A DNA stretch of 64,000 nt, from the NCBI GenBank assembly GCA_023664625.1, contig JAMPFD010000013.1:24762-88761 (forward strand). The letters run 5' to 3'. The stretch's first letter is position 1. The number at the start of each line of letters is the position of its first letter. The stretch is from Bacillota bacterium. Its GTDB lineage: Bacteria > Bacteroidota > Bacteroidia > Bacteroidales > Bacteroidaceae. The notes beneath the pieces were generated by a model. It was given only the letters and a program-made list of their open reading frames with translations, did not search any database and had not been told where the DNA came from. A program made the position numbers and the translations under genes. Below, in pieces: positions 18,947-63,402 of this stretch.

Positions 18947-19154
18947 GACAAAAAATATTGTTTTTTGCTTGTTTGTGCAAAAAAATGTCATTAAATGCAT
19001 ATAAACGAGAGTATTTTCCTGTCGTGCGGCAGCTTTTTCCTTTCTGGTTTCCCTGTTCCGGAAGTGGTCTCCGTGCGCCGGCGGTGTTCCGCGGGCTTCC
19101 GCGCGTCAGTTCCGCGGGAGAATTTCCGTGAGGGTTAATCCTTTTTAAGGAACG

Positions 19155-19850
19155 CGCGTTATTTTTATATAAAATCAGTGCTTTTTCCCGCTGTTTTCTT
19201 TTGTTTTTCCGTTAAATTCCTGCGATGTTTCCGCATTCCCCGCCGTTTCTCGGGAGGAGCGCATGGATTTTTCTCCGGCGGCAGGCTTCTGTTTCCCGCC
19301 GCCGGAGGTTCCGTCCCGCTCTTCGGGCGGAAATTCCGTGTCCCTGTTGTTTCCCGGAAAACATCAGGGCATTTTTTCCGCCGTGATGCGCCGGTGTTGC
19401 CGTGATGTGTCCTTTTTCCTGAAAACACCGTCGGAATTTTTTGAAACACCGTTGGAAATTTCTGAAAAGGCCTTTGAAATTTCCGAAACCATCCGCGGAT
19501 TTTCTGAAACCGTCTGCGGATTTTCTGAAAATCCCGCTGTTTTTTCCGGAGATGCAGGAGATTTTTCTGTGAACCCATGCTTTTTCAGGCGCATTTCCCG
19601 TCCTTTCGGGTGTGGAATCCGCCGTGTTTTTTGAGAAATGCGGCGGATTTTCTTGAGAAATCAGTCCGTTCCGGGCATGATCAGGGCCGTTTTTTTCATG
19701 AAAATCACGGAATCCCTTCCGCAAAACCGCCGCCGTGCCGGCGGAAAGCCTGCTTTTCGTGCGGGAATGACGTTATGGAATGTGAAAAGCCGCGGTTTTG
19801 AATGTCAACGGCATTGTTACGGGATGCAAAATAAATTACATTATTTTAAG
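19155..19850. repeat. Repeat element A: gene-free element with 21-bp internal tandem units
   Basis: This 0.7-kb stretch has no convincing gene. Its first 80 bases align with 48466 onward: both contain TTTTTATATAAAAT, then CTGTTT, TTTTCCGT, AAAT and TGCG at matching spacing. The interior (19410-19577) is eight degenerate 21-bp units with a core like GGATTTTCTGAAA. The last 100 bases (from 19755) align with the end of element B: TTTTCGTGCGGGAATGAC, then GTTATGGAATGTGAAAA, then a GTTACGGGATGCAAAA and AAATTACAT...TTAAG, on a 22-bp period. Both strands have open frames because stop codons are scarce, but none resembles a known protein. The whole gap from 18884 to 20104 otherwise holds only the galM promoter and the proS leader. 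Confidence 0.75.
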
Positions 19851-20066
19851 CCATGGCCTCATGGCCGCCGCAGCGGACTTCTGCCGTGTGCCGTGTGCCG
19901 TGCGGAGCCGTAGGGCGGGAATTCCTGCCGTCTTGTCCCCGCGGAGGGTTCCGGAAGTCAGGCCTTCACCTCCCGGGAGCGGGTGCGGGGAAGCCGCGGA
20001 ACGGCGATAATTGCCTAAACCTTAATATTATTTTGCTTAAAGGGCGCGTTATTCAAGTTTTTTTTG

Positions 20067-24235: not shown

Positions 24236-24970
24236 TTATTTATAAATGTGCCGTGCAAGTCCGTATATATAACGCCTGAATCCCGGCTTGTATGCAAGGA
24301 GGGTGTCAAACCATCCGATGTGCCGTCCGGCCATGCGCACGACGATGCCGACATAGAACATGGCAAACAATGTTCCCACTCCGATGATGTGCCACATCCA
24401 TCTGTGGAAGAAGAAGAAGCTTGCCGCCACTCCGAGGACGACGAGCATCGTGTCAACCATGATCTTTACTTTTGGAAAAGGCTTTCCCGAGACTTTGCTT
24501 ATTGCGACAGGGAAGCCCTCGCCCGGCATCGTCACACTCCCGCATCTCACCTCAAAGGCGATGCCGAAGCCGAGAATCGTACATCCGGCAAACTGTGCCG
24601 CGGCTTTCTGCCATGCCGCGACAGGCGTGAGCCATGCCGTGCAGGCCATGTTCACGTCTATGAGAAACCCGAAAACTGTGCCGACTACAAGCTGGAAAAG
24701 CTGCACCCATTCAAATCTTCCGCGCAGGACGGCCATCTGTCCAAGGACGAGTACGCCGTTCATGATATATGTATATTGCCCGATGGTCAGTGCGGGAATG
24801 TTCTCAAGCACCTTGCCGGCACTTTCAAAGACATAGGGCAGTACGCTTATGACGCTTGAGCCGACACCGGAGCGTACGCATACCGCAACGCCGAACGTCA
24901 TGATGTAAAGGGAAACAAGCAGCAGGATATGCTGCCAGATGAAAGAAACTGTTCTGTCTTTTCTATTCAT
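24236..24970 (-). CDS. YczE/YitT-like integral membrane protein
   Basis: A 244-residue protein with several hydrophobic segments and glycine-rich turns such as VRSGVGSSVISVLPYVF and VRCGSVTMPGEGFPVAI, the pattern of the YczE/YyaS/YitT group of membrane proteins of unknown function. It probably sits in the inner membrane. Starting at 24970, it is preceded by a 49-bp direct duplication that repeats its own first codons and leader (24952-25046). The function is unassigned. Confidence 0.75.
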   Translation of the reverse strand: MNRKDRTVSFIWQHILLLVSLYIMTFGVAVCVRSGVGSSVISVLPYVFESAGKVLENIPALTIGQYTYIMNGVLVLGQMAVLRGRFEWVQLFQLVVGTVFGFLIDVNMACTAWLTPVAAWQKAAAQFAGCTILGFGIAFEVRCGSVTMPGEGFPVAISKVSGKPFPKVKIMVDTMLVVLGVAASFFFFHRWMWHIIGVGTLFAMFYVGIVVRMAGRHIGWFDTLLAYKPGFRRYIYGLARHIYK

Positions 24971-25046
24971 GGATTTATGTATTTTGTTAAAGGATATTAT
25001 TCCGTCTTTTTCTATTCACGGATTTATGTGTTTTACTAGAGGATAT
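24952..25046. repeat. 49-bp direct duplication spanning the YczE-like gene start
   Basis: Two copies about 49 bp apart share TCTATTCA, GGATTTATGT and GGATAT at equal spacing. In the left copy CAT provides the start codon (minus strand); in the right copy it is CAC. The right copy therefore looks like a decayed duplicate of the gene's 5' end and leader. Confidence 0.7.
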
Positions 25047-44882: not shown

Positions 44883-45150
44883 ATGATATTTGGCGTTTTT
44901 TTGCTTTTACGGGCAGTCTTTACCGGTATATGTCATGGCGTTTGTTTTTGTTTGATATTTTTTTTGCTTTTACGGGCAGTCTTTACCGGTATATGTCGTG
45001 GGGTTTGTTTTTGTTTGGTATTTTTTTTGCTTTTACGGGCAGTCTTTACCGGTATATGTCGTGGGGTTTGTTTTTGTTTGGTATTTTTTTGGCTTTTACG
45101 GGCAGTCTTTACCGATATGTCGTGGCGTTTGTTTTTTGTTTGATATTTTT
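44883..45150. repeat. 63-bp tandem repeat, four copies
   Basis: The motif CTTTTACGGGCAGTCTTTAC recurs at 63-bp spacing (its TTTTAC begins at 44905, 44968, 45031 and 45094) with few differences. Because 63 is a multiple of three, a reading frame of 86 codons (44883-45143) stays open and would encode four 21-residue hydrophobic, cysteine-rich units. A TAATTTTG box lies at 44842-44849, but I see no protein-family support, so it is annotated as a repeat and not a gene. From 44270 to 45269 there is otherwise only the terminators and the candidate RNA. Confidence 0.8.
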
Positions 45151-45219
45151 TAGTGATTTCACAGCCATACCTCATTGCCGTGGCCTGGCGATGCATGGGG
45201 ACACGTCGGGTTATGGATG

Positions 45220-48381: not shown

Positions 48382-48465
48382 CGGCCCGGTTCTTGCGGAG
48401 GTTGCAGGAAACGGCTGACGTGCGTGGCTTTCATGAGCAATTGTGGCATGGCTGTTAACGTGAGC

Positions 48466-48968
48466 ATGTTGTTTTTATATAAAATTGGCATTATTTCCAC
48501 CTGTTTCCGTGTGGTTTTCCGTGAAATCCGTGCGTTTTTCCGGAGGAATCATGAGACAGGCGGAAATATCGCACGGATTTTTTCCTCTGTTGCGGTACGG
48601 TGGCTGTCTGCCGTCGGACAAACGGTATGCAGATGGCTTGTATTTTTCCGTAAGGCCCTTTGGATTTTTCGTAAAGCCCTTTGGATTTCTTGTAAGGTCC
48701 TTTGGATTTTTTGTAAGGTCCTTTGGATTTCTTGTAAAGCCCTTTGGATTTTTTGTAAAGTCCTTTGAATTTTTGTAGAATCCGATGTTTTTCCCGGAAA
48801 AACTTACTGTTTTGGTGGAATCTGACGGTTGTTTTTCTTATGAAAAGCGTCTGCTGCTTCGTTCCGGAGTGTTTTTCGGGCAAAAATGTCTGATTTTCCG
48901 TGCAGAAACAGTGTTATTTGGTGTGAAAAACAGTGTTATGGAGTGTAAAAAAATTATGATGCGTTAAG
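48466..48968. repeat. Repeat element B: divergent copy of element A
   Basis: A 503-bp element without a convincing gene. Its opening (GTTGTTTTTATATAAAAT, then CTGTTT, TTTTCCGT, AAAT and TGCG) aligns with element A. The interior 48655-48780 holds six clean 21-bp units, such as GCCCTTTGGATTTTTCGTAA, preceded by one decayed unit. The 3' end is two 22-bp units beginning GTTATTTGG and GTTATGGAG (48913 and 48935) with AAATTATGATGCGTTAAG as in A. On the minus strand the 21-bp units would read as basic heptads like YKKSKGL; element A's read as FRKSADG in one frame, but the flanking frames are not alike. The gap 48382-49138 also holds the hairpin at 49083-49118. Confidence 0.75.
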
Positions 48969-49082
48969 GTTCCGTGGAATCGGGGCGGCAGTTGGCGGCG
49001 GTATGTCTCCAGTGCCTTTTGCCGTGCCGTTGTTATTAGGAGCCGTGCTGTTGTTGTGTGGTGTACACGTGGGTATTGACGT

Positions 49083-62586: not shown

Positions 62587-63402
62587 GTTGTGAATTGCTT
62601 AAAAAGTTTCTGCTTCGCAGTATCAATAACAACAGAAGATTTAGTTATAGATATAGCTAATTAGTTGTGAATTGCTTAAAAAGTTTCTGCTTCGCAGTAT
62701 CAATAACAACCCCTCCCGGTGATGCTCTTGAGCCTCAGCCGTTGTGAATTGCTTAAAAAGTTTCTGCTTCGCAGTATCAATAACAACAGTTTCGGCTGTA
62801 ACATTTACAGCCTAATGTTGTGAATTGCTTAAAAAGTTTCTGCTTCGCAGTATCAATAACAACTGTCATTGGAATCATAATAAAGGGCTGGTAAGTTGTG
62901 AATTGCTTAAAAAGTTTCTGCTTCGCAGTATCAATAACAACCTGTAATGTATATATCAAAGATGAAGTGGTGTTGTGAATTGCTTAAAAAGTTTCTGCTT
63001 CGCAGTATCAATAACAACATTCTATGATTACATCCTGCCATCAAAGTAGTTGTGAATTGCTTAAAAAGTTTCTGCTTCGCAGTATCAATAACAACATTAG
63101 ATACATAAATTAAAAGCTCGGAAAGTTGTGAATTGCTTAAAAAGTTTCTGCTTCGCAGTATCAATAACAACAAATTAGTATCATAGGATATACCTTTACC
63201 CGTTGTGAATTGCTTAAAAAGTTTCTGCTTCGCAGTATCAATAACAACCAGCAGGGGGCAAAGAGACTATTCCGCCATGTTGTGAATTGCTTAAAAAGTT
63301 TCTGCTTCGCAGTATCAATAACAACAGCCTGCAAGGCGTTTGCGTTCTGACAGAGGTTGTGAATTGCTTAAAAAGTTTCTGCTTCGCAGTATCAATAACA
63401 AC
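62587..63402 (+). CRISPR. CRISPR array, 11 repeats of 47 nt, 10 spacers
   Basis: Eleven repeats, which look identical by eye, begin at 62587, 62664, 62741, 62817, 62895, 62972, 63049, 63125, 63202, 63279 and 63356. Each starts GTTGTGAATTGCTTAAAAAG, has a central CTGCTTCGCAG hairpin, and ends ATCAATAACAAC, so the termini are complementary (GTTGT/ACAAC). Spacers are 29-31 nt. A 47-nt repeat with 30-nt spacers and the GTTGTGA...ACAAC ends is typical of type II-C arrays in Bacteroidetes; type VI-B repeats are 36 nt. No cas gene or anti-repeat (tracrRNA) was found in the flanking sequence. No spacer matches the rest of the window by eye. Confidence 0.97.

Follow-up and report, generated by a model that had tools for sequence, protein, structure and literature searches.

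A dispersed non-coding intergenic repeat built of a leader, a 21-bp tandem array and a tail in a genome close to Palleniella intestinalis

Elements A and B, two regions within the 64,000 nucleotides analysed here (the window; G000:C4:24762-88761 of a 2.87-Mb draft genome in 32 contigs), are diverged copies of one non-coding intergenic repeat that is dispersed in this genome. The best account of them, to which we assign a probability of roughly 0.6, is a BrickBuilt-like dispersed intergenic element that does not code for protein, that consists of a leader, a 21-bp minisatellite and a tail, and that would have been mobile in the past.

Elements A and B and their relatives in the genome

Element A occupies about 711 bp of the plus strand (about 19142..19852) between a divergent pair of genes, for an aldose epimerase (minus strand) and ProS (plus strand), and its apparent start lies some 13–15 bp upstream of where the original prediction had placed it. 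A leader (19153..19276) contains TTTTTATATAAAAT followed by an inverted repeat (19214..19273), the latter evident both as predicted base pairs and as a reverse-strand leave-one-out match (19273-19214, E 1e-4). Six anchored array units follow, with spacings of 22, 21, 21, 21 and 21 bp (19408..19535), then a degenerate stretch of T-rich and GAAA-like words, read by inspection (19536..19739), and finally a tail of GTTAT- and TGTGAAAA-type words that passes into an A+T-rich end (19740..19852). In whole-genome searches the leader of A was matched at E 1.9e-19 and its tail at E 8e-22. Element B is shorter (519 bp; 48451..48969, plus strand) and lies between a convergent pair, a DUF2130 gene (plus) and an NqrF-like gene (minus). 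Its leader (48462..48587) also carries an inverted repeat (about 48524-48582, with a reverse-strand match at 48582-48524), its array comprises six anchored units with all five spacings at 21 bp (48637..48783), and its tail spans 48867..48969. The flanking genes of both elements were identified with Pfam, the right-hand neighbour of B by its Fer2 domain and its FAD- and NAD-binding domains; the names ProS and NqrF are those we presume from the protein and the domain set.

Local alignment of 19155-19850 with 48466-48968 gave a score of 61, compared with a mean of 24.0 (s.d. 2.8) for dinucleotide shuffles, none of 300 of which scored as high, while the reverse-complement control scored 29 and was equalled by 2/300 shuffles. 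Aligned by part, the 5' ends scored 61 (0/500 shuffles as high), the interiors 40 (0/300) and the 3' ends 24 (7/500). Since the 5' ends by themselves reach the score of the whole element, most of the pairwise signal lies in the first ~120 bp, with weak evidence at the 3' end. Leave-one-out nhmmer searches, in which the models used on each copy were built from the remaining copies only, returned E values of 5e-16 (5') and 6e-8 (3') for element A and of 2e-17 and 6e-11 for element B; the weakest copy, C, reached 1.6e-5 and 0.011. The 3' ends of A and B are thus secure once other copies serve as the reference. TRF reported a 21-bp period in both elements. These data uphold the original prediction that A and B resemble each other in start, interior and end, in the same order, and the landmarks quoted with it are readable in the sequence.

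Across the whole genome, a leader covariance model found six full-length copies, together with two reverse-strand matches to their own inverted repeats. The copies other than A and B are C (C4:17433), E (C6:39867-39993, minus strand), F (C27:16791) and H (C3:20964), all with leader, array and tail. A three-unit array model found twelve loci, namely the six full copies and six arrays with other flanks: D (C31), G (C29:4.2k), I (C32), J (C3:75k), K (C29:144.6k) and L (C22:278k). The tail model gave seven matches, six of them the tails of the full copies and the seventh a solo tail at C11:32558 that has no neighbouring array. As these models were built from the copies, they would be expected to recover them; independent evidence comes from the leave-one-out searches and from a plain BLAST search with B (E up to 1), whose 16 matches include B and several fragments of a single copy. 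The genome-wide matches remove the possibility that no other copy exists, and the proposed dispersed family, its ends conserved and its tandem interior variable, stands.

The six full copies share one plan. Each begins with a TTA(A)-like start and a variant of TTTTTATATAAAAT, continues with an inverted repeat near AAATCCGTGCG ... CGCACGGATTT and the array, and ends with a degenerate T-rich stretch, a tail of ~22-bp GTGTTAnnnnnTGTGAAAA-type repeats and an A+T-rich end. Five of them measure 519–750 bp; the sixth, E, reaches 1393 bp including an insertion, in which an rve_3 integrase-core ORF lies between its array and its tail. Interruption of the element is thus tolerated. Among the loci with other flanks, I has CRTGAGTTTTCTAA at both ends, and GTTTTC words of a looser kind occur at G, J and K. 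No mutual matches at E 1e-5 were found among the 1.5-kb flanks of the twelve array loci, which indicates that the dispersed units are the elements rather than larger blocks. The highest identity between any two of the twelve elements was 87.1% (matches of 60 bp or more), and there is thus no sign of recent copying.

Intergenic position was judged from Pfam-checked neighbours for A and B, from one or two such neighbours for H (phosphorylase superfamily), J (phosphopantetheinyl transferase superfamily and rRNA adenine dimethylase) and K (T9SS plug), and from ORF coordinates at the remaining loci.

Other repeats were seen in passing. Arrays D and L each have the same 42-bp perfect palindrome, centred on CGCGCG, close by (L033 ~1889-1930; L081 ~2326-2367). 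Its 20-bp core occurs at these two places in G000, once with 2 mismatches in G007, and in none of the other 38 genomes or IMG/VR. We take the palindrome to resemble protelomerase target sites; an explanation by protelomerase was rejected, with PF16684 in 0/40 genomes. The window further holds a CRISPR-like array at 62587-63402 (~47-nt repeat, 77-bp period, 10.6 copies by TRF), preceded by two ORFs for a ClpB-like AAA protein and a SpoU methylase, a 63-bp tandem repeat present four times at 44896-45151 (95% matches) that overlaps two ORFs with no Pfam match, and a tandem duplication of 48–49 bp at 24952-25046.

Restriction to one genome, and other families in related genomes

Among the genomes searched, the family is restricted to this one. 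The leader model found nothing at E 0.1 in any of the other 39 genomes, of which 23 belong to the same genus and 16 to the same order, and the best array-model E value was 5e-18 in the own genome versus 2.1e-4 elsewhere. Array-model matches at E up to 0.1 did occur in 32/40 genomes, but all of those outside the own genome were weak and were taken as chance. A scan of genome and viral contig collections with a two-unit array pattern gave no matches; this is weak evidence of absence, as the pattern fits only four of the nine own arrays then known (C, D, F and G) and the own or very near genomes were perhaps excluded from those collections. A single viral-contig match of the leader word lay in apparently coding sequence, was accompanied by no leader-model match and was judged to be chance.

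Judged by ProS, the closest named relative is Palleniella intestinalis (96%); the other 79 among the best 80 of 585 relatives, labelled as Prevotellaceae and other Bacteroidales, are at most 89% identical. P. intestinalis keeps the genes that flank A, and the alignable flanks there enclose a gap of 622 bp (3298-3919 of L082) compared with 1032 bp here (18993-20024). The P. intestinalis gap holds a member of a different dispersed family. Homology between A and that element was rejected (score 20 against a shuffle mean of 22.8, with 288/300 shuffles as high), and the comparison with B was likewise not significant. A search for this second family in P. intestinalis matched 51 places (E up to 10), a count that includes the query and some copies split in two.

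The second family also occurs in G000 (L213, L215-L234), where, as in P. intestinalis, its members are of the type GAGTTTTC ... CTATTTATCATAA and carry GGTTACC dyads; in both species these dyads stand 21–23 bp, or about twice that, apart. Its left-end pattern (up to 3 mismatches) was found 21 times in G000, nowhere in the 23 other genomes of the genus and a single time among the 16 of the same order; written backward as a control, it occurred once in G000. When the 21 own loci were compared with 30 from P. intestinalis (some overlapping), both flanks were common to the two species in L221/L182, L222/L190 and L225/L178, the element and one flank in L215/L170, and part of the neighbourhood in L230/L164 and L231/L168. 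The second family therefore predates the split of the two species at some sites. Contig C23 opens directly with a left end of this family, and the assembly may therefore be interrupted by the repeat. Upstream of a second-family element, at L198 ~1134-1249, stands a long inverted repeat, nearly perfect, one arm of which also begins C23.

Two further genomes matched the tail model. G017, of the same genus, gave 79 weak matches (best E 5e-6) and contains a high-copy third family in which 42/46 counted spacings between units are 22 bp. G006 gave 6 matches, and two of its loci (L238, L246) show repeats of AAAACCTATGGTTT-like words at ~22–23 bp, a spacing judged by eye. The matches in both genomes are read as similar repeat units, with homology not proven.

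Array units, folding and coding potential

Alignment of 88 units from eleven loci gave the consensus nGAATTTTTTGAAAAGGCCTT; locus H was left out of the unit analysis owing to a run of N. The arrays contain 3 to 14 anchored units set head to tail, and a CRISPR-type layout with unique spacers is absent. Spacing is 21 bp in 74/83 cases, the others being 22 bp (5), 20 bp (3) and 23 bp (1). Identity between units was 0.85 within loci versus 0.70 between loci, a difference reached by none of 2000 label permutations, while neighbouring and distant units of the same locus hardly differed (0.854 versus 0.848). Arrays have therefore been homogenised locally, within loci.

A possible but unlikely alternative to the BrickBuilt-like element is that the arrays are protein-binding sites, iteron-like or nucleoid-organising, in which a putative species-specific protein would read nGAATTTTTTGAAAAGGCCTT on one helix face every two turns, and the leaders and tails would be secondary. 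The exact 21-bp spacing, kept despite an identity of only 70% between units of different loci, would be expected of such sites, as would the presence of the same array inside elements with different flanks and the recurrence of units of 21–23 bp in the second family of both species and of 22 bp in G017. Uneven conservation along the unit points the same way. Anchoring fixes part of the unit core, so that only eleven columns can be used to judge conservation; over these, 63/20000 simulations were as uneven, columns +8 and +10 being constant in 11/11 locus consensuses and column -10 changed in 7. Such unevenness could, however, also come from shared descent of a few founder units, the insertion in copy E is tolerated, and the analysis yielded no candidate for the binding protein. 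Nor do the phased A/T tracts help. Although 10/11 arrays were phased to a degree matched by at most 2/300 dinucleotide shuffles (B by 16/300), run-permuted units were equally phased in 197–847 of 1000 permutations for all nine locus consensuses tested, and phasing was rejected as a special signal: the two-turn length of the unit is what brings the tracts into phase, and the order within it adds nothing.

A wider version of protein binding, which we regard as doubtful, would extend it to this group of Prevotellaceae, where species-specific, genome-wide intergenic arrays of 21–23 bp units might bind a fast-evolving protein that organises or marks the chromosome. Unit sequence would then change from species to species, unit length and dispersal would be kept, and the same array could occur with different ends.

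It is more doubtful still, and on the present data improbable, that the elements are long structured regulatory RNAs. On the plus strand the full elements A, B and F do fold more stably than shuffles (z -5.5, -4.3 and -4.2; minus strand -2.6, -2.8 and -3.9), and the leader inverted repeat is kept in most of the six copies. By contrast, full element C folds like its shuffles (z 0.2 and -0.2 on the two strands), and the eleven arrays, folded on both strands, range from z -4.1 to +4.6 with no consistent fold. Two-sided base-pair changes were found in none of the 18 predicted pairs of the leader inverted repeat, no base pairs were predicted for the tail, and Rfam covariance models at their gathering cut-offs gave no match in the whole window. 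The suggestion of a long RNA is thus not sustained, and the proposed search for covariation in the ends came back negative.

ORFs of 80 aa or more cross all twelve loci as drawn, the longest (358 aa) in H. None of the six over A and B had a Pfam match at E 0.1, in agreement with the prediction that no protein family would fit, and the same was true of six tested elsewhere (two in H and one each in K, L, J and G); one more ORF crossing J is a real gene whose end is merely touched by a generous locus limit. That the 21-bp units code, as seven codons, for heptad-repeat proteins is scarcely credible, for although 21 bp is divisible by three and A and B are crossed by ORFs of 91–170 aa, these ORFs have no Pfam match and the 9/83 spacings other than 21 bp break the frame.

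Mobility and comparison with known systems

The dispersal of the elements, their common layout, their restriction among the genomes searched, the local homogenisation of their arrays and the lack of coding evidence are direct observations. Their past movement is inferred, and several observations speak against it. Comparison of the first with the last 40 nt gave no terminal inverted repeats in any of the six full copies (p 0.144 to 0.98, 500 shuffles), the borders being uncertain by some bases. The longest word shared by the borders was 7 nt in A, 5 in B and 4 in the other four, counts taken without a shuffle control and showing no clear target duplication. Matches to the leader and tail models comprised the known copies, their own inverted repeats and one solo tail, with no parent transposon among them. 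The comparison with P. intestinalis offered no empty site, the gap at A being occupied by another element and synteny at B being broken on one side. Transposition of whole elements does not explain the six loci that have the array without this leader and tail.

Taking the BrickBuilt-like element as the preferred reading, we suggest that some enzyme acting in trans once carried short elements to sites between genes, where the copies then diverged in place. Slippage or unequal crossing-over may have lengthened, shortened and locally homogenised their interiors, as the similarity of units within loci suggests. The elements would be tolerated passengers that may alter the transcription of neighbouring genes, a possibility drawn from the reporter tests of BrickBuilt (PMC4596501).

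We found no paper on such repeats in Palleniella in the open-access library searched. Our results suggest that minisatellite-bearing dispersed elements, described in Porphyromonas, also exist with different units in the Palleniella group. They further suggest that one genome carries two such families side by side, and that a given gap between genes can be filled by different families in sister species. The spread of such elements, and selection on a unit length of 21–23 bp, thereby become testable.

Several known systems share parts of this plan. BOX elements of Streptococcus pneumoniae are dispersed and intergenic, their conserved ends enclosing internal modules (~45 bp) that vary in number; compared by description, their plan is similar to that of the family here, but phylum and module length differ. 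REP, REPIN and BIME sequences, again by description, resemble the family here as dispersed intergenic repeats with dyads; they are characterised by short tagged palindromes and a RAYT transposase.

MITE239 of Porphyromonas gingivalis has terminal repeats that are given in PMC4596501. An end resembling them, ACGTGAGTTCGATATAAGAA, was found at none of the ten own array loci tested nor in the window, and none of the comparisons made links MITE239 to A or B. It was also found in 0/30 P. intestinalis loci, 1/21 own second-family loci and 13/20 loci of the G017 family (L248-L267; up to 5 mismatches), a reversed-pattern control giving 0.

Closest in layout is BrickBuilt of P. gingivalis, made up of a leader, n x 23 nt and a tail, with 19 copies between genes and a range limited to P. 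gingivalis and P. gulae (PMC4596501). Of those copies, 4/19 keep both of the 12-nt IS5-like terminal inverted repeats, GAGACCTTTGCA and its complement, and there are partial copies with the leader only (3), the tail only (2) or neither (3) (PMC4596501). The present elements are multiple, non-coding and intergenic, and lie within 50–1000 bp except for E, which is longer through its insertion; as no terminal inverted repeats were found, we file the family neither as a MITE nor as BrickBuilt. It differs from BrickBuilt in having no terminal inverted repeats in its six full copies and in a unit of 21 rather than 23 nt (units compared by length only). What the two have in common is a leader–tandem array–tail layout, multiple copies (12 array loci here, 19 in BrickBuilt), intergenic position, partial copies, variable array length and a narrow species range.
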